From: Limnobacter sp. CACIAM 66H1
GTDB lineage: Bacteria > Pseudomonadota > Gammaproteobacteria > Burkholderiales > Burkholderiaceae_B
Direction: 5' to 3'
Length of the DNA: 55,993 bases
Assembly (NCBI RefSeq): GCF_001601825.1
Contig: NZ_LUJK01000016.1
Location: forward strand, 1 to 55,993
Shown here: positions 6,367 to 33,915 of the stretch, piece after piece
How the letters are laid out: the number at the start of each line of letters is the position of its first letter
How positions within the stretch are numbered: the first letter of the stretch is position 1
Notes under the pieces: model-generated
The model's input: the letters and a program-made list of their open reading frames with translations, nothing else
Told to the model about the DNA's origin: nothing
Databases searched by the model: none
Program-made: the position numbers and the translations under genes

Positions 6367-7062
6367 ATGCTTTATTTAGTTCCGAGCCCGCTAAGCCAGA
6401 AAACTCCAAAACTGCCTTTACTGGAGGCCGACCTGCCCTTGGTGCGGCAATGCAACACCTGGCTGGTAGAGAACGCAAAACCGGCTAGGGCTGCCCTAGG
6501 GCATTTCAATATGCCCACGGCCATTCGGGATCTGCAAATATTTGAAATCGCGCAACTAAATCCCCAGCAACGCCAAGATATCGTGCAACGCTGCAAGGCA
6601 GGGGAACCAATTGCGGTGATGAGTGACGCAGGCTGCCCCGGCGTGGCAGACCCAGGCGCCGAGATTGTAGGTCTCGCGCACCGACTGGGATGCCCGGTTC
6701 ACCCTTTGGTAGGTCCAAGCTCTATTTTATTGGCGCTCATGGGAAGTGGCTTGAATGGACAAAACTTCCGCTTTTACGGATACCCGCCCTTGGACCCGGG
6801 GCAGCGTGATGCATGGATAAAACAGACGGAGCGAGAGTCCAGGACGCAACGCTGCACTCAAATCGTTATCGAAACACCATTCAGAAATGACAAACTGATT
6901 GAGGCACTTCTGAAACAGCTTTCTGACTCAACCTTGCTTTGCATAGGCTGGGACTTGACAGGCGACGAGCAGCAAATACAAACCAAAACTGTTGAACAAT
7001 GGAAAAAACGGATGCCTACGCCAGGCAAGTCACCCTGTCTGTTTTTGTGGTTGTCAGCCTGA
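6367..7062 (+). CDS. SAM-dependent methyltransferase, RsmI/tetrapyrrole methylase family
   Basis: The fold is that of RsmI, which 2'-O-methylates C1402 of 16S rRNA, but this is a shorter, diverged relative of 231 residues that probably acts on another substrate. Visible motifs are LYLVPSPL at the start, VMSDAGCPGVADPG (SAM site) and PLVGPSSILLALMGSGLNG, with YGYPP and ETPFRND after. It is co-directional with the maf gene with a one-base gap, so they are probably co-transcribed. The next gene downstream is convergent. Confidence 0.85.
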   Translation: MLYLVPSPLSQKTPKLPLLEADLPLVRQCNTWLVENAKPARAALGHFNMPTAIRDLQIFEIAQLNPQQRQDIVQRCKAGEPIAVMSDAGCPGVADPGAEIVGLAHRLGCPVHPLVGPSSILLALMGSGLNGQNFRFYGYPPLDPGQRDAWIKQTERESRTQRCTQIVIETPFRNDKLIEALLKQLSDSTLLCIGWDLTGDEQQIQTKTVEQWKKRMPTPGKSPCLFLWLSA

Positions 7063-7076
7063 TTTGTTCAACTCTT

Positions 7077-8033
7077 TTACTGAAAACCAAGGGTTTGCTT
7101 AAGCCCGAGCTCTGGAAACACACTGCGAACACCCTGACCAAACACAACACCCACCCGCTGAGCAAAACGCTCCGCAAATGAATCTTGCTCGGTGTAGTCC
7201 AGAATATCTTCGGCCTTCAGCACATCACGCGCAACGGTATCAATCGACCCTAATTCGTCTGCCAAGCCTAACTCAACACTCTTTGCGCCAGTCCAGACCA
7301 AACCACTGAACAATTCGGGGTTCTGTTGCAGCTTTTCACCTCGACCTTCTTTAACTACCTCGATAAACTGTTTGTGAATTTCCTCTGCCATTTGCTTGGC
7401 GAATTCAGTCTGGTAGGGATCTGCTTCACTGAAAGGATCCAGAAAACCCTTGTTTTCGCCAGATGTGATCAAACGGCGTTCGACGCCCAGTTTCTCCATC
7501 GTTCCTGTGAAGCCGAAACCATTCATCACCACCCCAATGGAGCCCACCAAACTGGCTTTATCCACAAAAATTTTGTCAGCTGCCGCCGCGACGTAATATC
7601 CACCCGAGGCACAGACCTCTTCTACTACTGCATAAAAGGGTTTGTCGGGATACTTGGCGCGAAGACGCTTGATCTCGTCGTTGATCAGGCCAGCCTGAAC
7701 GGGGCTACCGCCGGGGCTATTGATTCGGAGAATGACACCGACAGAGCCTTCACTTTCAAACGCCGCTCTGAGGCTGGAGTTTATTCTGTCAGCGCTGGCC
7801 AGGCTATCACTGGAAATGACACCATCTAGATCCACCAGTGCAGTGTGTCGGCTGACTTCAAGGCTGGGCGTGGCGGTAAACCCCAGCACTGAGGCAATTA
7901 AAATACCCACATACACCAAACCGATCAACTTGAAAAAGATGCCCCAACGTCTCTTTCTTCGTTGCTCAACCAACGCTTCGGAGGCCAGCTTTTCCAGAAG
8001 CTTTCGCTCCCATTGATTGTTTTCATCACTCAT
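7077..8033 (-). CDS. sppA: Signal peptide peptidase SppA-type S49 protease
   Basis: Membrane-anchored serine protease that degrades cleaved signal peptides. It has 318 residues: a cytoplasmic basic N-terminus, one transmembrane segment at about 31-52, then a single S49 domain. The nucleophile is the Ser of EEVCASGGYYVAAA, and the catalytic lysine should lie in or near FVDKASLVGSIGVV. The single-domain length matches the short form of SppA. The frame opens six bases earlier at a TTG, but ATG at 8033 has GAGG about 7 nt upstream. It is the last gene of the rluC-HAD-Rieske-sppA operon. Confidence 0.93.
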   Translation of the reverse strand: MSDENNQWERKLLEKLASEALVEQRRKRRWGIFFKLIGLVYVGILIASVLGFTATPSLEVSRHTALVDLDGVISSDSLASADRINSSLRAAFESEGSVGVILRINSPGGSPVQAGLINDEIKRLRAKYPDKPFYAVVEEVCASGGYYVAAAADKIFVDKASLVGSIGVVMNGFGFTGTMEKLGVERRLITSGENKGFLDPFSEADPYQTEFAKQMAEEIHKQFIEVVKEGRGEKLQQNPELFSGLVWTGAKSVELGLADELGSIDTVARDVLKAEDILDYTEQDSFAERFAQRVGVVFGQGVRSVFPELGLKQTLGFQ

Positions 8034-8035
8034 AT

Positions 8036-8413
8036 TCAATCCTCAATACCATCGGCCGGCACCGTAATCAGCTCAGTAGGGGTCCAGTACACGACACCGT
8101 TTTTCTCTTCTACATTCAATCGCACCAACGGGTTACCGTCACATGGGCCACCCAAGCAACTGCCGTCGGTGGCGTCGTAACTGGCACCGTGAGTGGCACA
8201 CACCACAATTCGACCAGAATCGTCGAGAAATTCGCCATAATTCCAGTCAAGTTCAACGGGTACATGGGAACAACGATTCAAAAAACACCTCACTGCATCA
8301 TCAACACGTACCACGAATGCAGTGGTTTCCTCGTTGTTATACAAAACCCTGAAGCGGTAGCTTGTGCCGCCCTCTTCTAGTTCACTGGATTGACATACCT
8401 GAATTTGCTGCAT
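8036..8413 (-). CDS. Rieske [2Fe-2S] domain protein
   Basis: Small soluble Rieske protein of 125 residues. It has the two cluster-binding boxes, RCSHV (Cys-x-His) and CATHGA (Cys-x2-His), about 20 residues apart, followed by GGPCDGNPL. It has no membrane segment, so it resembles dioxygenase-type or NirD-like ferredoxins rather than bc1 Rieske subunits. Its partner is unknown. It lies between the HAD phosphatase gene and sppA with spacings of 9 and 2 nt, a neighbourhood seen in other Burkholderiales as far as I recall. Confidence 0.9.
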   Translation of the reverse strand: MQQIQVCQSSELEEGGTSYRFRVLYNNEETTAFVVRVDDAVRCFLNRCSHVPVELDWNYGEFLDDSGRIVVCATHGASYDATDGSCLGGPCDGNPLVRLNVEEKNGVVYWTPTELITVPADGIED

Positions 8414-8422
8414 ATTGATTGA

Positions 8423-9082
8423 TTAGCGGGCTGAGATTGTTTGAATGAGCCAAGGGGCCAACTCATTGATTGAACGAAAAGACTCCAGATGAGGCACTTG
8501 ATTCAGTAATTTGGGTGGGTGAGCGCCTGTCTGAACCGACAAGGCGTGCACGCCAGCGGCTTGAGCCATATTCAGATCGTGCGTCGTATCACCGATCATG
8601 ACCACATGTGCTGGGTCTGTATTGAACTCCTCCATCAACTCCAAAATCATTTGAGGATGGGGTTTGCTGTGACATTCGTCTGCGCAACGTGAACTCATGA
8701 AATAACGAGCTGTATCAGAGTTCGCCATGGCGCGGTTCAGGCCTTGCCTGCTTTTACCCGTGGCCACTGTGCAAATAACCCCCATTTCATTCAGTTGTTT
8801 AAGAAGGGGAACGGCACCGGTAAACAATTCCAACTCGTGATCTTTGCTGAGGTAGTGCTTGCGGTAGCTTTCAACCAGCAGGCCAATTTGGGCCTCGCTT
8901 GCTCCGGGGGCTGCATGGCGTAACGCATCACTCAAGCCCAAACCGATGACATAAGAGGCAATCTCCTCGCCGGGATCAGGCAAGCCGGCATCTAGACAGG
9001 CTCTCTGAATGGAGCGCGTAATCGCACCGGTTGAGTCGAGTATGGTGCCATCCCAATCAAACACCACCATTTTGTAGGTCAT
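8423..9082 (-). CDS. HAD-family hydrolase, phosphoglycolate phosphatase-like
   Basis: Predicted cytoplasmic phosphatase of 219 residues. Motif I is VVFDWDGTILDS (Asp nucleophile and acid/base Asp), motif II includes TVATGKS, and motif IV is VVMIGDTTHDLNMAQAAG. A helical cap lies between motifs I and II, as in Gph and similar enzymes. The start overlaps the rluC stop by 4 nt (ATGA), so translation is probably coupled. The substrate cannot be told from sequence alone. Confidence 0.9.
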   Translation of the reverse strand: MTYKMVVFDWDGTILDSTGAITRSIQRACLDAGLPDPGEEIASYVIGLGLSDALRHAAPGASEAQIGLLVESYRKHYLSKDHELELFTGAVPLLKQLNEMGVICTVATGKSRQGLNRAMANSDTARYFMSSRCADECHSKPHPQMILELMEEFNTDPAHVVMIGDTTHDLNMAQAAGVHALSVQTGAHPPKLLNQVPHLESFRSINELAPWLIQTISAR

Positions 9083-10086
9083 CTGCTTTGTACTGCCTGT
9101 AACGATTTTAAAAAACTGTTCAATTCGGGGGCCAAAGGAGCCTCTAGTACTATAGTTTCATTTGAAGCCGGATGAACCAGCTGCAAGCGTGCTGCGTGCA
9201 AAAACATGCGTTTCAGGCCATGTCTGGCCAATTGTTTGTTCATTTCAAAATTTCCGTAGCGATCATCGCCAGCAATTGGAAACTTGTTGGCACTGGTGTG
9301 CACCCTGATCTGGTGAGTCCGTCCAGTCAAAATTTGCGCCTGAATTAAAGTAAAAAGTGAGTAATTCGATTTATACTCCTGAATTATCTTGAACTTTGTT
9401 AAAGCCTTATCCCCATTCTCATCGACAAAAACCCTTGCTTCCTTCTCACCCGCCTGAGTTTTCAGTAAAGGTAGATCAACTTGTCGAAGTGTCGTTGGCC
9501 AACGTCCGAGTACCAAGGTTTGGTAGTACTTCTTCCAAGATCGAGCTCTCAGTTGTTCCTGTAAGATTCTGAGAGCGCTACGCTTTTTAGAAATAATCAA
9601 GATTCCCGACGTTTCACGGTCAATGCGGTGAACAAGCTCCAAATCTTGATGGGTTTCAGACCTAAGTGCCCGAATACATTCAATTAATCCAAAGCTTGAG
9701 CCCGAACCACCGTGAACTGCCATGCCAGAAGGCTTGTTGACCACCAGCAAATGTTCATCTTCAAACAACACGGGTATTTCAGCGGCGGTTCTTAACAGCT
9801 GTGCTTTATTTACAGTGTTACTTGATGAAAGAGATTCAAGTGTCTGTTTTTCCAGTACTTGAATTGGAGGAATACGTACCACATCACCCACACACAGCTT
9901 GGTTTTAGCCTCTGCACGCTTTCTGTTGATTCGCACCTCTCCCGACCGGATAATTCGAAAAACATGGCTTTTGGGTACGCCTTTGCAGACGCTGCACAAA
10001 AAGTTGTCCAGTCGCTGGTTTTGATGTTTTTCGTCAATTTCGAGCAAAACAGCCCTGTCTGGATTGGGTTTTTCCTGTGTTTTCAA
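9079..10086 (-). CDS. rluC: 23S rRNA pseudouridine synthase RluC-type
   Basis: Converts uridines of 23S rRNA (955, 2504 and 2580 in E. coli) to pseudouridine. It has 335 residues: an N-terminal S4 RNA-binding domain (QRLDNFLCSVCKGVP to about 90) and a catalytic domain with HRIDRETSG, where the Asp is the nucleophile, plus LTGRTHQIRVH. The frame's first start is TTG at 10086; no ATG precedes the S4 domain. Another TTG at 10047, preceded by AGGG, is a possible alternative. It is transcribed away from rne and leads the operon with the HAD, Rieske and sppA genes. Placement next to rne is common in proteobacteria. Confidence 0.93.
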   Translation of the reverse strand: MKTQEKPNPDRAVLLEIDEKHQNQRLDNFLCSVCKGVPKSHVFRIIRSGEVRINRKRAEAKTKLCVGDVVRIPPIQVLEKQTLESLSSSNTVNKAQLLRTAAEIPVLFEDEHLLVVNKPSGMAVHGGSGSSFGLIECIRALRSETHQDLELVHRIDRETSGILIISKKRSALRILQEQLRARSWKKYYQTLVLGRWPTTLRQVDLPLLKTQAGEKEARVFVDENGDKALTKFKIIQEYKSNYSLFTLIQAQILTGRTHQIRVHTSANKFPIAGDDRYGNFEMNKQLARHGLKRMFLHAARLQLVHPASNETIVLEAPLAPELNSFLKSLQAVQSR

Positions 10087-10094
10087 TTCTTTGT

Positions 10095-10124
10095 TTTACC
10101 AATTGGGCGGGTTCAGCATATAAT
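10095..10124 (+). promoter_or_regulatory. Sigma70 promoter for rne
   Basis: A perfect -10 TATAAT (10119-10124) is preceded by TTTACC (10095-10100) at 18 nt, or TTACCA one base later at 17 nt. Transcription would start near 10131 and give a leader of about 375 nt before rne. The rluC promoter on the other strand must lie in the same short region but is not clear. Confidence 0.65.
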
Positions 10125-10130
10125 CGGATT

Positions 10131-10506
10131 ATCGCTTGGGAAGCGTCCGAAATCACTTCTGGATACGCCCCATGGCGATTTTATTTAGTGGGTGTGCCGC
10201 CTACCCTGGATGGTGGCAATGATGGCTGAAAAAGAGGCGCGCGGCTGAATGCCCGCCTTAAGCTGGAAACAAAGAATTTTACGCACCAGCGCGCACAAGA
10301 AGCGCTGGGTACTAACAAAAACGACGCAGGCCCACCTTACGCAGGTGAAATTTGAACCAATATTTATTATTAAATATCAATGCCTTAGTTTAATCGCCGC
10401 TCTTGGTTATATCCGAGTGGCGCATTGTTGTATTCGTTTTTGAATCTCTTTGTTCCTTCCGCTTTTTCAGCATCTCTTTTCGCACTGCGGTGCCATTGGA
10501 GTGTGC
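10131..10506 (+). promoter_or_regulatory. Long structured 5' leader of rne
   Basis: This 376-nt gene-free stretch between the promoter and the rne ATG holds four simple stem-loops: 10133-10145 (5 bp, loop GGG), 10286-10308 (7 bp with a 9-nt loop), 10333-10347 (5 bp, 5-nt loop) and an all-A/U one at 10360-10377 (7 bp, loop TTAT). In E. coli, RNase E autoregulates by binding and cutting a structured rne leader of similar length. The sequence here is not recognisably the same, so the parallel is inference. No ORF in this stretch looks real. Confidence 0.5.
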
Positions 10507-27022: not shown

Positions 27023-29152
27023 ATGCTCCAAGATCCCCGCCCCATCAGACCAACACAGCACGCCCTGCGCAGCGTACTTGAGAAAATGGGGCTGGAGTTT
27101 TTACCCAGCCAATGGGCATTGCAAGCCAATTTGGCTGAGACAGGAAACGACCCCGAACTGAATCAATTGTTGGCTTATCTATCAGCCTGCAATATTTCTC
27201 GGCAGCTGTTTCAAAATGTGTCCACCAGTGAAATAAAACACCTTGGTCCACACACGCTGGCCATGTTGCACAACGGCCAGTGTGACTTGCTTGAAGAACT
27301 GATTGCATCGAATTCCCCACCAGCGTCCTTGAAATGGGCCCTGCAAATTGAAGCCCCCCAAACCACTGTAGGCACCCGCAGCGAACCAGCGCCGTCAAGC
27401 CTGTTTGAGTTTTGGCAACAGCTTCGTGATAGCCAATGGTTGCGAGAAGCACTCGATTTTGAGAATGGAAGCTTCAAGCCGGTGATCTATGCCTCTCTGT
27501 TGATCAACTTGCTGGCCCTGGCAGGCCCGCTGTTCTCGCTACAGGTGTATGACCGCATCATTCCCAACCAAGCCTATGCATCAATGATTGCATTGCTGTT
27601 CGGTGTATTTCTTTGCCTGGGTTTTGAGCATTCTTTAAAGCATGCGCGCCATCGCTTGATGGAAATTGCGGCAACCTCCATCGACACCCGCTGCACCATG
27701 CACCTGTCAAAATCACTCTTGAATGTGCCCATCCACAAAACCGAACCAACCCTGCTTTTGCAGCACCTTCGTTCGTTCGAGCAACTGCGTGAATTGGTTA
27801 CAGGCGTGTTTCTGCTTGCGCTGATTGACCTGCCGTTTCTGCTGCTTTTTCTGGCGGTAATTGCCCTGATTCATCCCCTTTTCCTGTTGATCTCGGGCGG
27901 AGTAATTGGACTCACCTTGCTGTTCATCGCCACATCTCACCGAACAATTTCCCGGCTCGGGCAAACACAAATGCGGCAAAGCCGCGAAACCCAAAGCCAA
28001 TGGCTAGACTCGCTGGCCTGTCTGGACAACATTCAGGCACACGGCGTTCAACAAGCACACAGCAAACTGTTGAACAAACTTCAGCTTAAATCGCGGCTAA
28101 GCGGCAATGCAGTTCGCGATCAAATGTTTTTAATCAATCAACGAATACACCTGTTGCAACAAGGCAGTTGGGTACTGACCATCGCGCTGGGTGTTTATTT
28201 CATTGTTGAAAAACAACTCACCGTGGGTGGCTTGATCGCAGTCTCCATGCTCACCATGCGCTGCTTTGCGCCCATCCAGAAATTACAGGCCCACCTGGTA
28301 CAAACCCATTCGGCCCAGGCCAGCTTCGAAGAACTGGACCGGTTTTTAGCGCAACAAACCCAAACCACTGAGCAACGCGCCGCACTTGAACGCATCGACA
28401 CCATGGCACTTGAATTTGCAAGCGTTTTGAAACCGGGCCGCAACCGTGAAACTGCTCAACCTTTTGACTTCATACTGCGCACCGTGAACCTGCAACTGCA
28501 CGCGGGAAACCGGCTTGGAATCATCGGTACAACAGGCTCTGGAAAAACCTCCCTGCTCAAACTGCTGGCCCAACAACTGAAATGCGATCACGGCCAACTG
28601 GCGGTCAACAAGCTTTCGATTGCACATTTTCACAGCAGTGAATTTCAGTCCAAAGTGGGTTATGCAAGCCAACCCCCGGTGCTGATCAAGGGCAGTTTGC
28701 TCGACAACATTCGCTTCATGCGCCCGCAAATCAGTACTGAGAACTGCTGGAAAATTCTGCAACAACTTGGGCTCAAAGAATGGGTAGATCAACACCCGGA
28801 CGGCATTCACATGGCAATTGACAGCCAGGGCAACAACTTGTCTTCAGGGCAAAAGCAGGCTGTGTCGCTGTGCAGAGCGCTGGCGGGCCAACCCCAATTG
28901 GTACTTCTGGACGAATCCCCTGTGTGCCTTGATCAACACATGGAGAGCCAGCTGATGCAACACCTTCAGCAGCTGCCAGAACACAGCATTTTGGTATTCA
29001 CCACCCACAAGCTTGGGCTATTGGCTTGTGCCAGCAGCCTTGCACTGATGCACAAGGGGCAAATTCACGCGCAGGGCAACAAGCCTGAAGTACTGCACGC
29101 AGCCAATGCACTTGCCACACAACACAAACAAAAAAAGCAGGTTGAACCATGA
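27023..29152 (+). CDS. Type I secretion ABC transporter (permease/ATPase)
   Basis: Inner-membrane exporter that powers one-step secretion. The 709 residues contain an N-terminal domain (about 1-150) without a recognisable C39 protease Cys/His pair, then a six-helix membrane domain from about residue 155 (VIYASLLINLLALAGPLFSLQVYDRI), then the ATPase. Walker A is GTTGSGKTS (about 502-509), the Q-loop is in VGYASQPPVL, the signature is LSSGQ (about 605) and the H-loop is TTHK. Walker B reads LVLLDESPVCLD, where most exporters have LLDEPT or LLDEAT; the catalytic Glu is kept. It overlaps the HlyD gene by 4 nt. Closest in type to the LapB/HlyB group. Confidence 0.92.
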   Translation: MLQDPRPIRPTQHALRSVLEKMGLEFLPSQWALQANLAETGNDPELNQLLAYLSACNISRQLFQNVSTSEIKHLGPHTLAMLHNGQCDLLEELIASNSPPASLKWALQIEAPQTTVGTRSEPAPSSLFEFWQQLRDSQWLREALDFENGSFKPVIYASLLINLLALAGPLFSLQVYDRIIPNQAYASMIALLFGVFLCLGFEHSLKHARHRLMEIAATSIDTRCTMHLSKSLLNVPIHKTEPTLLLQHLRSFEQLRELVTGVFLLALIDLPFLLLFLAVIALIHPLFLLISGGVIGLTLLFIATSHRTISRLGQTQMRQSRETQSQWLDSLACLDNIQAHGVQQAHSKLLNKLQLKSRLSGNAVRDQMFLINQRIHLLQQGSWVLTIALGVYFIVEKQLTVGGLIAVSMLTMRCFAPIQKLQAHLVQTHSAQASFEELDRFLAQQTQTTEQRAALERIDTMALEFASVLKPGRNRETAQPFDFILRTVNLQLHAGNRLGIIGTTGSGKTSLLKLLAQQLKCDHGQLAVNKLSIAHFHSSEFQSKVGYASQPPVLIKGSLLDNIRFMRPQISTENCWKILQQLGLKEWVDQHPDGIHMAIDSQGNNLSSGQKQAVSLCRALAGQPQLVLLDESPVCLDQHMESQLMQHLQQLPEHSILVFTTHKLGLLACASSLALMHKGQIHAQGNKPEVLHAANALATQHKQKKQVEP

Positions 29153-30507
29153 AAATTCAACATCACGCACAGCGAATTGTCGACTGGCTTGTCGGGCGGA
29201 ATGAAGAACATCACATGCCGGCTACTGCAGGGCTGGACCAGTCAAGGCTGTGGCATGAACAACAAGTGCTCACCAAACGCCTGGTACATGGCTGCGCCCT
29301 CACCTTGCTGGCCCTGCTGGCGTGGTCTGCAATTGCAACAGTGCCCCAGGCTGCACATGGCGAGGCACGTGTGGTTCCCTCGCAGCGATTACAGGTCATT
29401 CAAGCCGTAGACGGCGGCGTGATCAACCAGGTGTTTGTCCGCGAAGGTCAGCTGGTGAAGGCTGGTGACAAACTGGTTCAAATTGACATCACGCGTTTTT
29501 CATCAAGCCTCAAGGAAAAGGAAGCGATCGACGCCTCGTTTCAATTTCGAGAAGCCCGGTTAATGGCACAACTTAACAACACAACGCTAAACCTGCCTGC
29601 CCCACTCATTCAGCAGTACCCCGATTTGTACCTGCAAGAATCCAAGTTGCTACAAACCAAACTGCAAGAATGGGCCGCACAAACGCAAATTTATGAACAG
29701 CAGCTTGACCAACGGCAACGCGAACTCGACGAAGCACAAAGCAACGCCACTGCAGCCAAACGGAATCTGGAAATATCGGAACAAGAATTGAGCAGCATGC
29801 GGCCACTGCTAAAAAGCGGCGCTGTATCCCCGGTTGAAGTACTGCGACTTGAACGCGATGTAGCCAAGGCCAAAGGCGACTATGAAGGTGCCAATGCACA
29901 AACCAACCGACTGTACTCTGCCATTCGTGAGGCCCGCCAGAAAATTGAAGAAATTCGATTAAAGCAAATCAACGAAGCACGCATCGAGCTCTCGGAAGTC
30001 AAGGCACGCTTGGCCAGCCTTGAGCAAAACCAGATCGAACTGAACGACAGGGTGAACCAGGCCACCTTAAAAACCCCGGTGGACGGCCTTGTACAACGTA
30101 TTTTGTACAACACCCGGGGTGCCGTTGTGCCTGCGGGAAAAGAGGTGATCGAAATTGTGCCAATTGATGAACAGCTGGTTTTCGAGACACGAATCAACCC
30201 AAAAGACATCGCATTCATTCGACCTGAACAAAGCGCCAACATTCGAGTCACAGCCTATGACTATTCCATTTACGGCGCACTTAAAGGTACTGTAGAAAGT
30301 ATTTCTGCGGACAGTTTGCTCGATGAATTCGGCCGACCTTACTTCAGTGTGAAAGTGACAGTGCCGCGCCTGAAAGTACATGAAAAAATTCGTCTGATGC
30401 CTGGCATGGTCGCCAATGTCAGCATTGAAACTGAAGATCGAACGGTATTGTCCTATCTCACCAAACCTGTCATACGCGGCTCAATTCAGGCATTTACTGA
30501 ACAGTAA
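29149..30507 (+). CDS. HlyD-family type I secretion adaptor
   Basis: Periplasmic membrane-fusion protein linking the ABC exporter to the TolC channel. It has 452 residues: one transmembrane segment at about 46-66 (ALTLLALLAWSAIATV), a split biotinyl/lipoyl domain (QAVDGGVINQVFVREGQLVKAGDKL early, TLKTPVDGLVQRILYN late), a long Gln/Glu-rich coiled coil at about 140-300, and a C-terminal beta-barrel region. Its ATG overlaps the exporter stop (ATGA). It is followed by a 139-nt spacer with two palindromic elements before the candidate cargo gene. Confidence 0.93.
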   Translation: MKIQHHAQRIVDWLVGRNEEHHMPATAGLDQSRLWHEQQVLTKRLVHGCALTLLALLAWSAIATVPQAAHGEARVVPSQRLQVIQAVDGGVINQVFVREGQLVKAGDKLVQIDITRFSSSLKEKEAIDASFQFREARLMAQLNNTTLNLPAPLIQQYPDLYLQESKLLQTKLQEWAAQTQIYEQQLDQRQRELDEAQSNATAAKRNLEISEQELSSMRPLLKSGAVSPVEVLRLERDVAKAKGDYEGANAQTNRLYSAIREARQKIEEIRLKQINEARIELSEVKARLASLEQNQIELNDRVNQATLKTPVDGLVQRILYNTRGAVVPAGKEVIEIVPIDEQLVFETRINPKDIAFIRPEQSANIRVTAYDYSIYGALKGTVESISADSLLDEFGRPYFSVKVTVPRLKVHEKIRLMPGMVANVSIETEDRTVLSYLTKPVIRGSIQAFTEQ

Positions 30508-30536
30508 ATCAACACCAGCCATCCCAATAACTCCAT

Positions 30537-30548
30537 AGAGTTAACTCT
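30537..30548. promoter_or_regulatory. Palindrome AGAGTTAACTCT
   Basis: A perfect 12-bp palindrome 30 nt after the HlyD stop, upstream of the candidate cargo gene. Possible operator; short enough to be chance. Confidence 0.3.
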
Positions 30549-30563
30549 CACTCATCCTGACCC

Positions 30564-30590
30564 AATCACCTGTTTGGCACACAGGTGATT
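30564..30590 (+). repeat. 10-bp hairpin between adaptor and cargo genes
   Basis: Perfect arms AATCACCTGT/ACAGGTGATT with a 7-nt loop lie 57 nt before the cargo ATG. No T-run follows, so it is more likely a processing or mRNA-stability element than a terminator. It could allow more cargo than machinery to be made. Confidence 0.5.
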
Positions 30591-30646
30591 TGGAACCAAA
30601 CTCGCGACTCGATCACTTATCAATGACATCGAACCCGAGGACACCC

Positions 30647-31858
30647 ATGAGCGAGAAGCCCGTTGTAAATGCCCAAGAATGCGACCCCAGTACCCTTGGC
30701 TTGGCCAGAAAACCGCGCCCGGCCTTAAAGCGCAAACCGCAAACTGAGGTGGTTGTTCAACTGGGACCCTTTACAGACGGGCAAATTACGGCACCTGAAA
30801 TGATTCGTCCCCTTGAAGGACCCACGGAATGGCTGATCAAGCCAAAAACCGGTGAGATTGTTCCCTTTGACGCAGGCACGCCACCCGAGAAGGATGTCAT
30901 CCGCAAATACATCACCGTGGGTGCTCAGGACAACGATGTACCCGAGGATCTTCCCAAACTGAGCGAAGGCTATGTTGTGGAGCGGATTAACCAGGACCCG
31001 CTGCCCAGCATGGATGGTGAAGTTGGCGAAAATGGTGTCAACACAGTTCGTGTGGTTGAAAAAGAAGGCCCAGCCAGCGTGGAATGCAAGGACACACCAC
31101 CACCCACGCCCGTCGATGAAAATGAAGAACCCCCACCCGTAGACCCACCTGTGGATGAGGAAGAGGACTGCGAATGCCCTACGCCACCCACCTGCCCGCC
31201 TGTGGACGAACAGGAGGACTGCGAGCCAGAACCCGAATGCAAACCGGAACCTGAATGTACACCTGAGCCTGAGTGCAAAACAGATCCTGATTGCCCGGAG
31301 GTTGACGCGGTTAATGACTGCGCCAGCACGAAGGTGGATTGCCCGGTAATTGTGGACGTTCTGAAAAACGACCTAGGCTGCGGTGATTTGAAAATCACCG
31401 AGGCCAGCGCCGAGAACGGCACGGTTGAAATCAGGGATGGCAAATTGCACTACACACCGAACGAGGGTTTTTGCGGGGAAGATGTCATCAGCTACACCCT
31501 GGGCGATGAAAGCTGCCTGACCGACACCGCCCATGTGTACATGAACGTTGAGCCTGACGACACGCCAGTGAGCGACAACGACTGCCCAACCGGCTACCCC
31601 GACTGCACCGAATACACCGATGGCAACGACTACGCGGGCAATACCAAGATGAACGACCATGAATACTCGTCTGAACACTACACAGTCGATGCGGTAGTTG
31701 AAGCGGTTCAGGAAAAGGTACAAACCTATCTGGATCAAGCCCAGGAACAAGCCAACGAATACATTCAAAGCAAAACTGGCTGGGCTTCTGGTTTTGGCAG
31801 CTGTGGTTTCGACTCTTCAGCCTGCGCACCGGCTGAAGAAGCTGCCGTAGTTTGCTGA
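30647..31858 (+). CDS. Cysteine-rich protein with Ig/cadherin-like domain, candidate type I cargo
   Basis: Not recognised as a named family. The 403 residues have no signal peptide or membrane segment and contain 20 cysteines. Residues 145-225 are Pro/Glu/Asp-rich; cysteines at 192, 198, 204, 210 and 216 form a strict six-residue repeat (C-x-P-E/D-P-E/D). Residues 230-303 form one bacterial Ig/cadherin-like repeat (VLKNDLGCGD ... YTPNEGFCGEDVISYT) as in large adhesins. An amphipathic Ala/Gln/Glu helix (about 347-375) precedes a Cys/Gly/Ser C-terminus ending in Cys. ATG 30647 has GAGGA 5 nt upstream; earlier starts lack one. Its place between HlyD and TolC genes suggests it is the exported substrate; that is inference. 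Confidence 0.75.
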   Translation: MSEKPVVNAQECDPSTLGLARKPRPALKRKPQTEVVVQLGPFTDGQITAPEMIRPLEGPTEWLIKPKTGEIVPFDAGTPPEKDVIRKYITVGAQDNDVPEDLPKLSEGYVVERINQDPLPSMDGEVGENGVNTVRVVEKEGPASVECKDTPPPTPVDENEEPPPVDPPVDEEEDCECPTPPTCPPVDEQEDCEPEPECKPEPECTPEPECKTDPDCPEVDAVNDCASTKVDCPVIVDVLKNDLGCGDLKITEASAENGTVEIRDGKLHYTPNEGFCGEDVISYTLGDESCLTDTAHVYMNVEPDDTPVSDNDCPTGYPDCTEYTDGNDYAGNTKMNDHEYSSEHYTVDAVVEAVQEKVQTYLDQAQEQANEYIQSKTGWASGFGSCGFDSSACAPAEEAAVVC

Positions 31859-31881
31859 TGCAATTTAACGAACGAGCCAAC

Positions 31882-33915
31882 ATGAACACAAGCAACACAC
31901 CAAACCCCACGCTGAAAACCTTGCCTGCGGCCATGCTCCTTGCCTTGCTCACCCTGAGTGCCCCTGCCGCCTGGGCACAGGAAAGCCAGGCTGTAACCGA
32001 GGTGCCAGCCCAATCAGCGACGCAAGCAACTGAAAACAATCCGCCAAATCCCTTGCAACAAAGTGTAATTAAAGGCCTGCAAAACAGTCCGACACTGGAT
32101 GCCGATGTGCATGCACTCGAGGCGCAAATGGAAGAAGCCAACGTGGTGTTCGGCACTTTGCTACCCACTGTCGATGCACGGGGCTCCGCAGGTCGCGAAC
32201 GTACCCGGATCGAGGATGCTGACACACGCACCTACAACGCGAACTCCTATGGCATTGAAGCGCGCCAAAACCTGTACAACGGTTTTGCCTCACAGGCTCG
32301 TTACCTCGCAGCCCACTCTGGAGCCATGCAAAGCTATTACCGATATCTGAACAAAGCCAATCAGGTTGCCTTTGAAGCCTCTAGCGCGCATGTTGATGTA
32401 TCCCGCTTCCAGGCACTGACTCGCCTGTCAGAAGACAACTTGAAATACCATCAGGACCTGATGAACCGGATTGAAGAAAAGGTCAAAAGTGGTGTGACCC
32501 GTCAATCTGACCTTGAACAGGCTCGTAGTCGATATACGCTGGCTTTGGGCAATTTGGCCACAGAAAAAGCAAACACCTTTTCTGCAATGGCCAACTATCA
32601 ACGAATCACCGACACAGTTTGGCCAGTCAATCAAGTCGGGGAATATGTTGTGAATGCGAACTTTGAAATCGAGAACCGAGAACGCCTGGTGTTCGCGCTG
32701 AACAATCACCCGCTACTCAAGGCTTCTAATTCCGCACTTACCGCGGCCAAGCAGGAAGTGACCGCCGCCAGTGAAGGTTTTCATCCTCGACTTGATTTGC
32801 GTGCAAAAACCGACATTTACAGCAACTACCTGTCGACATTCGACGAACGACAAATCTCGTCGATCGATTTGCTGGCCACAATCAACCTGTACCGAGGTGG
32901 TGCAGACACTGCAACCCGTAACGCTGCGATCAAACGTCGACTCCGCAGCCTGGACGACAAGTTGGTGATCTGCAGAGCCATTCGCCAATCGACTCAAACT
33001 GCACTTTTTGACGTGATCAGTTCGCAAAAAAAACTGAATTACTTTCGCGAACAGGCAGCTGCAATTACCAAAGCACGAGCTGCCTATGAACAACAATTTG
33101 CGGTGGGACGACGCAGCCTGCTCGATTTGCTGAGTGCGGAGAATGAGTACTATCAGGCTCAGCGCGCCCTAATCAATATCGAAGCTGATTTGAGCGTTTC
33201 CAAACTGAAGTTGCTCGGCGCCACTGGTCAGCTCACCACATTGTTTGCAGTGGACGCGCTGATTAACGCTGATGAACCCACCAAGCGCAATGTAATGTTC
33301 TACGATGAACAGCGGCTCAGTGGTGCTGAGTCTGAGGGTTGTCCAGCCAGCTTGATCAATCTTGAAGACTTCGATTTGCCCAACATCGGATTCGATGAAG
33401 CCTTGAAGTCAGTGGAAGCCACAAACAACTTGCCTCCAATTCAATTGGCCCAACTCGCCAATGGTGACGTAACCAACCAGCAGGTGGCCGCATTTGGCGA
33501 CCCTGCGGAAGTCTCCAAAAGCCTGATCGACAAAACCAAGGCATGGGCCAAGGCTTGGGAAAGCAAAGACTTGAACAGTTACATCGCCTTTTACGCGCCA
33601 AACTTCAAGCCCGAAGAGGGCAGCTACGAAGCATGGGTCAGCAAACGACGTGATCGAATTTCAAAAGCACAGGGAATCGACATCGAAATTTCTGACTTGC
33701 AAGTGATACCCAGTTTTGACAAACCCGATGAGTACGAAATCAGCTTTGTTCAAGATTACCGTGCAAAGTTTTATCAAGAACGCTCGAAAAAAGTACTGAC
33801 CTGGAAAGAAAACAAAGGCATTTGGCAAATTATCCGGGAACAAAACACGCCTGTGACCACAGCACAAACCCAAGGCAGAAAAAACCTGAATCTCGCTCAT
33901 GCCAAGGTCAATTAA
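31882..33915 (+). CDS. TolC-family outer membrane channel with C-terminal NTF2-like domain
   Basis: Outer-membrane exit duct of the type I system. The 677 residues include a signal peptide (LLALLTLSAPAAWAQ), a TolC-type efflux domain to about 450 (GIEARQNLYNGFASQAR, FAVGRRSLLDLLSAENEYYQAQR), a linker, and at about 543-665 an extra domain (KAWAKAWESKDLNSYIAFY ... KGIWQIIREQ) that resembles the SnoaL/NTF2-like Cds6 fold. Usual TolC proteins end before this. ATG at 31882 suits the signal peptide; ATG 31858 overlapping the previous stop (TGATG) is an alternative. It is convergent with the asparaginase gene, with an 8-nt gap. Confidence 0.9.
   Translation: MNTSNTPNPTLKTLPAAMLLALLTLSAPAAWAQESQAVTEVPAQSATQATENNPPNPLQQSVIKGLQNSPTLDADVHALEAQMEEANVVFGTLLPTVDARGSAGRERTRIEDADTRTYNANSYGIEARQNLYNGFASQARYLAAHSGAMQSYYRYLNKANQVAFEASSAHVDVSRFQALTRLSEDNLKYHQDLMNRIEEKVKSGVTRQSDLEQARSRYTLALGNLATEKANTFSAMANYQRITDTVWPVNQVGEYVVNANFEIENRERLVFALNNHPLLKASNSALTAAKQEVTAASEGFHPRLDLRAKTDIYSNYLSTFDERQISSIDLLATINLYRGGADTATRNAAIKRRLRSLDDKLVICRAIRQSTQTALFDVISSQKKLNYFREQAAAITKARAAYEQQFAVGRRSLLDLLSAENEYYQAQRALINIEADLSVSKLKLLGATGQLTTLFAVDALINADEPTKRNVMFYDEQRLSGAESEGCPASLINLEDFDLPNIGFDEALKSVEATNNLPPIQLAQLANGDVTNQQVAAFGDPAEVSKSLIDKTKAWAKAWESKDLNSYIAFYAPNFKPEEGSYEAWVSKRRDRISKAQGIDIEISDLQVIPSFDKPDEYEISFVQDYRAKFYQERSKKVLTWKENKGIWQIIREQNTPVTTAQTQGRKNLNLAHAKVN

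Follow-up and report, generated by a model that had tools for sequence, protein, structure and literature searches.

A Limnobacter type I secretion cassette whose small Ig-domain protein may be a minimal LapA-like substrate

Introduction

What does a dedicated type I secretion machine carry when the only other gene beside it encodes a small, cysteine-rich protein? The question is raised by a 55,993-nucleotide stretch of DNA from Limnobacter sp. CACIAM 66H1 (contig NZ_LUJK01000016.1, our C16, of a 3.2-Mb genome; hereafter the window), in which genes for an ATP-binding cassette (ABC) exporter, an HlyD-family adaptor, a protein with an immunoglobulin-like (Ig) domain and a TolC-family channel follow one another. 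A first-pass annotation had described a self-contained type I cassette with a small non-RTX protein, here called the cargo, as its sole non-machinery gene. That description stands, and the cassette proves to be kept through the genus. We favour, at about even confidence, the reading that the cargo is a minimal LapA-like type I substrate served by a dedicated exporter related to those of giant-adhesin systems, and that it is perhaps held in its own TolC. A literature search pairing Limnobacter with type I secretion found no paper.

Results

The cassette and its conservation

The features of the locus are these:

27023..29152, plus strand: type I ABC exporter (LssB/LapB-like), 709 aa; open reading frame (ORF) and profile matches
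29149..30507, plus strand: HlyD-family periplasmic adaptor, 452 aa; ORF and profile matches
30592..30619, plus strand: conserved element GGAACC-N16-CACTTA, likely a promoter of the extracytoplasmic function (ECF) type; fits the hrp box
30647 (ATG) to 31858, plus strand: cargo gene, 403 aa, 20 Cys
30647..31093, plus strand: conserved N-terminal part of the cargo (residues 1-149), with a beta core predicted for residues 32-91
31094..31300, plus strand: cargo Pro/Glu/Cys-rich linker, residues 150-218; length and Cys content vary
31301..31555, plus strand: cargo Big_9 Ig domain, residues 219-303; profile match
31556..31855, plus strand: C-terminal part of the cargo (residues 304-403), evolving fast and with a helix predicted for residues 347-382
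31882 (ATG) to 33915, plus strand: TolC-family outer membrane channel; profile matches
33523..33843, plus strand: Cds6_C NTF2-like domain at the TolC C-terminus; profile match

ORFs and family matches confirm the consecutive order on one strand, with a type I ABC exporter, an HlyD adaptor and a TolC-family channel adjacent to one another. The ABC protein scores 89.9 bits with ABC_tran (cut-off 25) and 36 with ABC_membrane (cut-off 28); its best type I model, TIGR03375 (LssB), gives 443.6 bits, under the cut-off of 693.1. The adaptor matches TIGR01843 (type_I_hlyD) at 344.5 bits (cut-off 208.65). The channel, which begins with a signal peptide as judged by eye, matches OEP at 149.7 bits (cut-off 22) and Cds6_C at 67.4 bits (cut-off 27), and reaches 224.8 bits with TIGR01844 (type_I_sec_TolC), slightly under the cut-off of 225.15. 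A role in anti-phage defence was rejected, PADLOC having matched only the ATPase portion of the exporter and neither the cargo nor TolC.

The four-gene order, which the first-pass annotation suggested looking for elsewhere, is intact and in one piece in 12 of the 16 genus genomes; in the other four it is cut by contig ends (G013, G010) or split over two contigs (G002, G003). All 16 have a cargo match (the search query started 11 codons before the ATG), and the cargo lies between HlyD and TolC wherever a contig shows both sides. Its surroundings are also stable: moeA flanks the cassette in 13 of 16 genomes (the contigs of G013 and G010 stop short of it, and the 4.7 kb visible in G002 lack it) and an asparaginase gene in 15 (not reached in G010). 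Outside the genus, four of 24 relatives have a cargo match, confined to the Ig part, and the N-terminal domain (N-domain) was found in Limnobacter only; the closest named cargo is that of Limnobacter sp. P1. Big_9 is scored in the cargo of 14 of the 16 genomes. One cargo variant, in G010 (L033/L068), is a 271-aa open frame without an Ig domain, and may be an assembly error because its contig is titled with 2.19-fold coverage.

The cargo protein

The cargo is as first described: 403 residues, 20 cysteines, a single Big_9 domain (46.2 bits, cut-off 23.6) and no signal-peptide-like stretch, the best 17-residue Kyte-Doolittle mean being 0.41 over about the first 60 residues. GAGGA closely precedes its ATG at 30647. 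Across the 13 full-length orthologs the protein carries a strong negative charge (net -30 to -87) and is built of an N-terminal part of about 149 residues (about 131 in G014 by the marker used), a linker of 47-156, an Ig domain of about 85 and a C-terminal part of 93-126. The ratio of nonsynonymous to synonymous substitution (dN/dS), computed segment by segment against the window cargo for eight orthologs, is 0.021-0.114 for the N-domain (computable in seven of the eight), 0.025-0.254 for the Ig domain (five), 0.128-0.418 for the C-terminal part (seven) and 0.008-0.435 for the linker (three, the others being saturated). The gene is under purifying selection, and since it is also kept across the genus it is not a product of chance. 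Conservation is highest in the N-terminal domain, which is an orphan, and in the Ig domain; between them runs a Pro/Glu-rich linker whose lasting trait is to be acidic and proline-rich.

AlphaFold2 models the whole cargo with low confidence (mean predicted local distance difference test score, pLDDT, 53.4; predicted template modelling score, pTM, 0.27), the better-scored parts being the strands of the Ig domain and, in the C-terminal part, a helix at residues 347-382. For the N-domain alone it predicts six strands between residues 32 and 91 in blocks of pLDDT 72-85, with the remainder mostly below 50 (mean 57.5, pTM 0.38).

The first-pass annotation went further and took the cargo for a disulfide- or metal-cross-linked surface protein in which, on this account, the cysteines would be essential. 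Several features speak for it. There are 20 cysteines here and up to 33 in G009, and five of the eight in the window linker lie six residues apart; all 13 orthologs have Cys12, and 10 of them end in Cys; at each of five positions in the Ig domain 10-12 of the 13 have Cys, which makes a disulfide inside that domain possible in most species; and G004 has His at repeating linker positions, where metal binding would be possible. The totals in the 13 full-length orthologs (20, 19, 16, 15, 15, 17, 28, 10, 20, 33, 18, 3, 27) nevertheless fall to 10 in G001 and 3 in G004, linker cysteines range from 0 to 19 (0 in G004, 1 in G001, and 0 also in the N-terminal fragment of G002), and the near relative Limnobacter sp. 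P1, whose N-domain is 99% identical to the window's, has 17 in its cargo. The linker repeats carry Cys in most species, Thr/His in G004 and Glu-Pro in part of G011. Cysteine richness thus varies between species and is probably not the purpose of the cargo; on these counts we set cross-linking aside as its defining property and regard it as very improbable.

Relatives of the machine and the search for another cargo

Of 300 Burkholderiales genomes, 21 have a relative of the TolC at E<=1e-60, two of these genomes being Limnobacter. In 20 of 21 extra-genus TolC rows the alignment takes in query residues 654-670, in the Cds6_C region. We examined 12 neighbourhoods of such relatives in 11 genomes (L096-L107). 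The order in L096 is ABC, HlyD, regulator, a 3407-aa adhesin with Big_9, RTX and LapA domains, and TolC; that in L103 is TolC, ABC, HlyD, regulator and the start of an adhesin. Both adhesins start with a TAAG-bearing module. Long cut adhesin ORFs are present in L100 and L102 and adhesin-like pieces in L105, L104 starts with a repetitive 660-aa ORF that is perhaps an adhesin, and L107 has a long ORF that is mostly masked; no adhesin was seen in the neighbourhoods L097, L098, L099, L101 and L106. Several neighbourhoods also hold LapG-like and LapD-like genes, as judged by eye. The related TolC loci, where visible, adjoin LapA-like giant adhesins; in Limnobacter a miniature occupies that position. 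In L096 (17423-18010) and L103 (17519-18163) a gene for a LuxR-like regulator, also judged by eye, separates HlyD from the giant adhesin; the Limnobacter cassette has no regulator gene between HlyD and cargo.

The window's HlyD is 45% identical to the L096 adaptor, 41% to that of L103 and 30% to the second HlyD of its own genome, and the L103 ABC protein is 29% identical to the window's and 32% to the second ABC protein of that genome. The adaptor and the channel suggest the LapA kind; the ABC protein is less telling. The second type I system, with downstream genes of its own, lies at 6891-15404 of L056 (G000:C23) and comprises an ECF sigma factor, a weak anti-sigma match, ABC, HlyD and a TolC without Cds6_C, followed by 473-aa and 277-aa proteins with no Pfam or NCBIfam match. 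Cds6_C itself was not mentioned in the first-pass annotation, nor was the conserved element before the cargo; the domain recurs, at 71.1 bits and again C-terminal, in a TRAP-type DctM permease at 10458-13157 of L174 (G000:C35).

A distant RTX gene as the true cargo, the refuter named in the first-pass annotation, was not found: PF00353 (RTX repeats) and TIGR03661 each gave 0 matches in the genome of the window (8 and 1 of 16 genomes, respectively, in the genus). The cargo itself has no PF00353 match, and its rows have no GGxGxD. The genome's other Big_9 protein (G000:C22) was rejected as a cargo, its start resembling, by eye, that of a Sec-exported lipoprotein. An unlinked substrate without known motifs may nonetheless exist, in which case the protein we call cargo would stay inside as an accessory of the exporter, be it regulator, plug or chaperone. 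Such a role would suit the strong conservation of the N-domain, which would face the cell, as well as the fast drift of the C-terminal part, the expected seat of a type I signal, and the atypical C-termini. It sits poorly with an Ig domain of adhesin type, with a position that is the giant adhesin's in L096, with the lack of an RTX or TIGR03661 candidate and with the lipoprotein-like start of the other Big_9 protein, and we consider it unlikely.

A promoter-like element before the cargo

Upstream of the cargo, GGAACC-N17-ACTTA is present in 14 of the 16 genus genomes, and GGAACC at a fixed spacing from a second box is kept in all 16; the second box is exactly CACTTA in 12, CACACA in G014 and CACTCA in G004. 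Among 10 divergent loci GGAACCA is identical in all 10 and the six second-box bases in 8-10, and some columns directly upstream of the element are likewise identical in all 10. A reading frame that overlaps the element is not kept in distant members, and the conservation is therefore of DNA. The hrp box consensus given in PMC8809351 is GGAACC/T-N15/16-C/T/GCACNNA, which 30592-30619 of the window fits. Given this fit and the conservation in 16 of 16 genomes, the element is likely an ECF-type promoter. Genome-wide, neither the strict pattern (38 matches against 74 controls, summed over 16 genomes) nor the loose one (23 against 58 in the genome of the window) is enriched.

Control by the regulon of a type III secretion system was considered and found weak: near hrcV-like genes (18 stretches of 20 kb, 11 genomes) the hrp-box pattern has 4 matches against 1 for the reversed pattern. 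Two of those four precede an hrcV-like gene by 69 and 49 bp (in G006 and G014), and TIGR01399 (hrcV) is above cut-off in four of 16 genomes, the genome of the window having one match, below it. Elsewhere in that genome, L174 (G000:C35) holds at 6432-10173 a pair of ECF sigma genes (39.8% identity) together with a sigma-54 activator gene and two small ones. The two related ECF genes carry no HrpL assignment; two loose hrp-box matches lie near them, and as the patterns are not enriched genome-wide it is by position only that these genes are candidates for the cognate sigma factor. A 143-aa protein there is chaperone-like by eye only, with no Pfam match. Directly before the promoter-like element, the window has a perfect 9-bp inverted repeat with a 7-base loop (30565-30589), the right arm of which is altered in L057.

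Discussion

The context of the cassette makes it likely that the cargo is exported by it, and from the architecture of the cargo we hypothesize that it may be tethered. Gene order, conservation, domain composition and the upstream element are observed, whereas export, its direction, the retention, the sigma factor and the adhesive role are what we infer. According to this picture, the unfolded 403-aa protein would pass through ABC-HlyD-TolC with its C-terminus leading, and the single Ig domain and the C-terminal region would fold outside the cell. By analogy with LapA, the N-terminal beta domain may fold on the periplasmic side and keep the cargo lodged in its own TolC; the Pro/Glu-rich linker would thread the channel, and the result would be a short surface stalk without release by LapG. 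Cargo and tolC would probably be transcribed from their own ECF-type promoter. Consistent with retention, the N-domain is the best kept part of the cargo (dN/dS 0.02-0.11) and the shortest linker of the 13 orthologs has 47 residues. TolC is about 140 Å long, a distance that 47 extended residues are about enough to span.

Retention is also the step at which the most substantial alternative departs, namely that the same exporter and cargo are at work and the protein is simply released, the N-domain being its working part and no anchor. No similarity of the N-domain to the LapA retention module was found, and LapG (PF06035) is unmatched in the genome of the window and in 13 of the 16 genus genomes (0 matches and 3/16, respectively), as release would allow. 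Pointing the other way are the distance of the N-domain from the Ig domain, never under 47 linker residues in 13 orthologs, and the adhesins with a TAAG-bearing N-terminal module beside relatives of the machine; we regard release as possible if rather doubtful.

Of the known systems, the closest is the LapA/LapBCE type, exemplified by LapA of Pseudomonas fluorescens, whose giant adhesins carry a retention module at the N-terminus. The two share a tripartite machine, with an HlyD 41-45% identical to those of two such loci, a C-terminal Cds6_C domain in the TolC relatives, a substrate gene behind HlyD (L096 and L103) and Big_9 as the first Ig domain. The Limnobacter cargo differs in having 403 aa and one Big_9 against 3407 aa in L096, in its other N-domain, and in lacking a LapG site, RTX and a TIGR03661 end; its source genome has no LapG match. 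By the sequence features tested, then, the cargo itself is outside the LapA kind. Bap-like adhesins without the LapA-type module offer a second comparison. According to PMC12153261, BapP of Pseudoalteromonas tunicata has 1,600 residues, 12 sandwich repeats, a predicted Sec signal and an N-terminal domain that differs from the LapA module and is proposed as an anchor. Common to both proteins are Big_9, adaptor and ABC genes adjoining the substrate gene, and an N-terminal domain unlike the LapA module, whereas the Limnobacter cargo has a single Ig domain and lacks a signal peptide. Microcin-type exporters (PMC10231218) likewise pair a small cargo with a dedicated exporter. The Limnobacter cargo has no double-glycine leader, none of the cargo rows having Gly-Gly among its first 60 residues, and the N-terminal part of its ABC protein (residues ~1-130, no family match), where the catalytic Cys of a C39 peptidase would be looked for, has no Cys column conserved in seven aligned orthologs.

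Several results weigh against a minimal LapA-like substrate. Comparison of the N-domain with the retention modules of L096 and L103 gave an hhalign probability of 0.13%, from a shallow profile, and confidence in its model is modest (mean pLDDT 57.5). The [TAP]AAG cleavage site of LapG is missing from all 18 cargo rows, fragments included, and the [FLI][VAI] ending enriched in RTX proteins from the C-termini of all 13 full-length orthologs. The atypical C-terminus, like the lack of recognisable kin for the N-domain, tells against tethering. The ABC protein, to judge by its identities, does not single out the LapA kind, and Big_9 is not scored in the cargos of G002 and G010, both incomplete genomes. 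A more specific proposal is that, throughout the genus, a lineage-specific N-domain, unrelated to the LapA module, would permanently lock the cargo in its own TolC, perhaps docked on Cds6_C, as a fixed stalk without release by LapG and cyclic di-GMP and under control of an HrpL-like ECF sigma factor. We think it improbable in this full form.

If exported, the cargo would have about one-eighth the length of the L096 adhesin beside a related machine, and as a type I substrate of this compact size it could serve as a model in which to ask what parts of LapA-like substrates are needed for export and tethering. Should it also be retained, it would show that a substrate can be tethered by an N-terminal domain of another kind and with no LapG. 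The conserved promoter-like element suggests that display is regulated, and may offer a handle on the signal to which that display responds.

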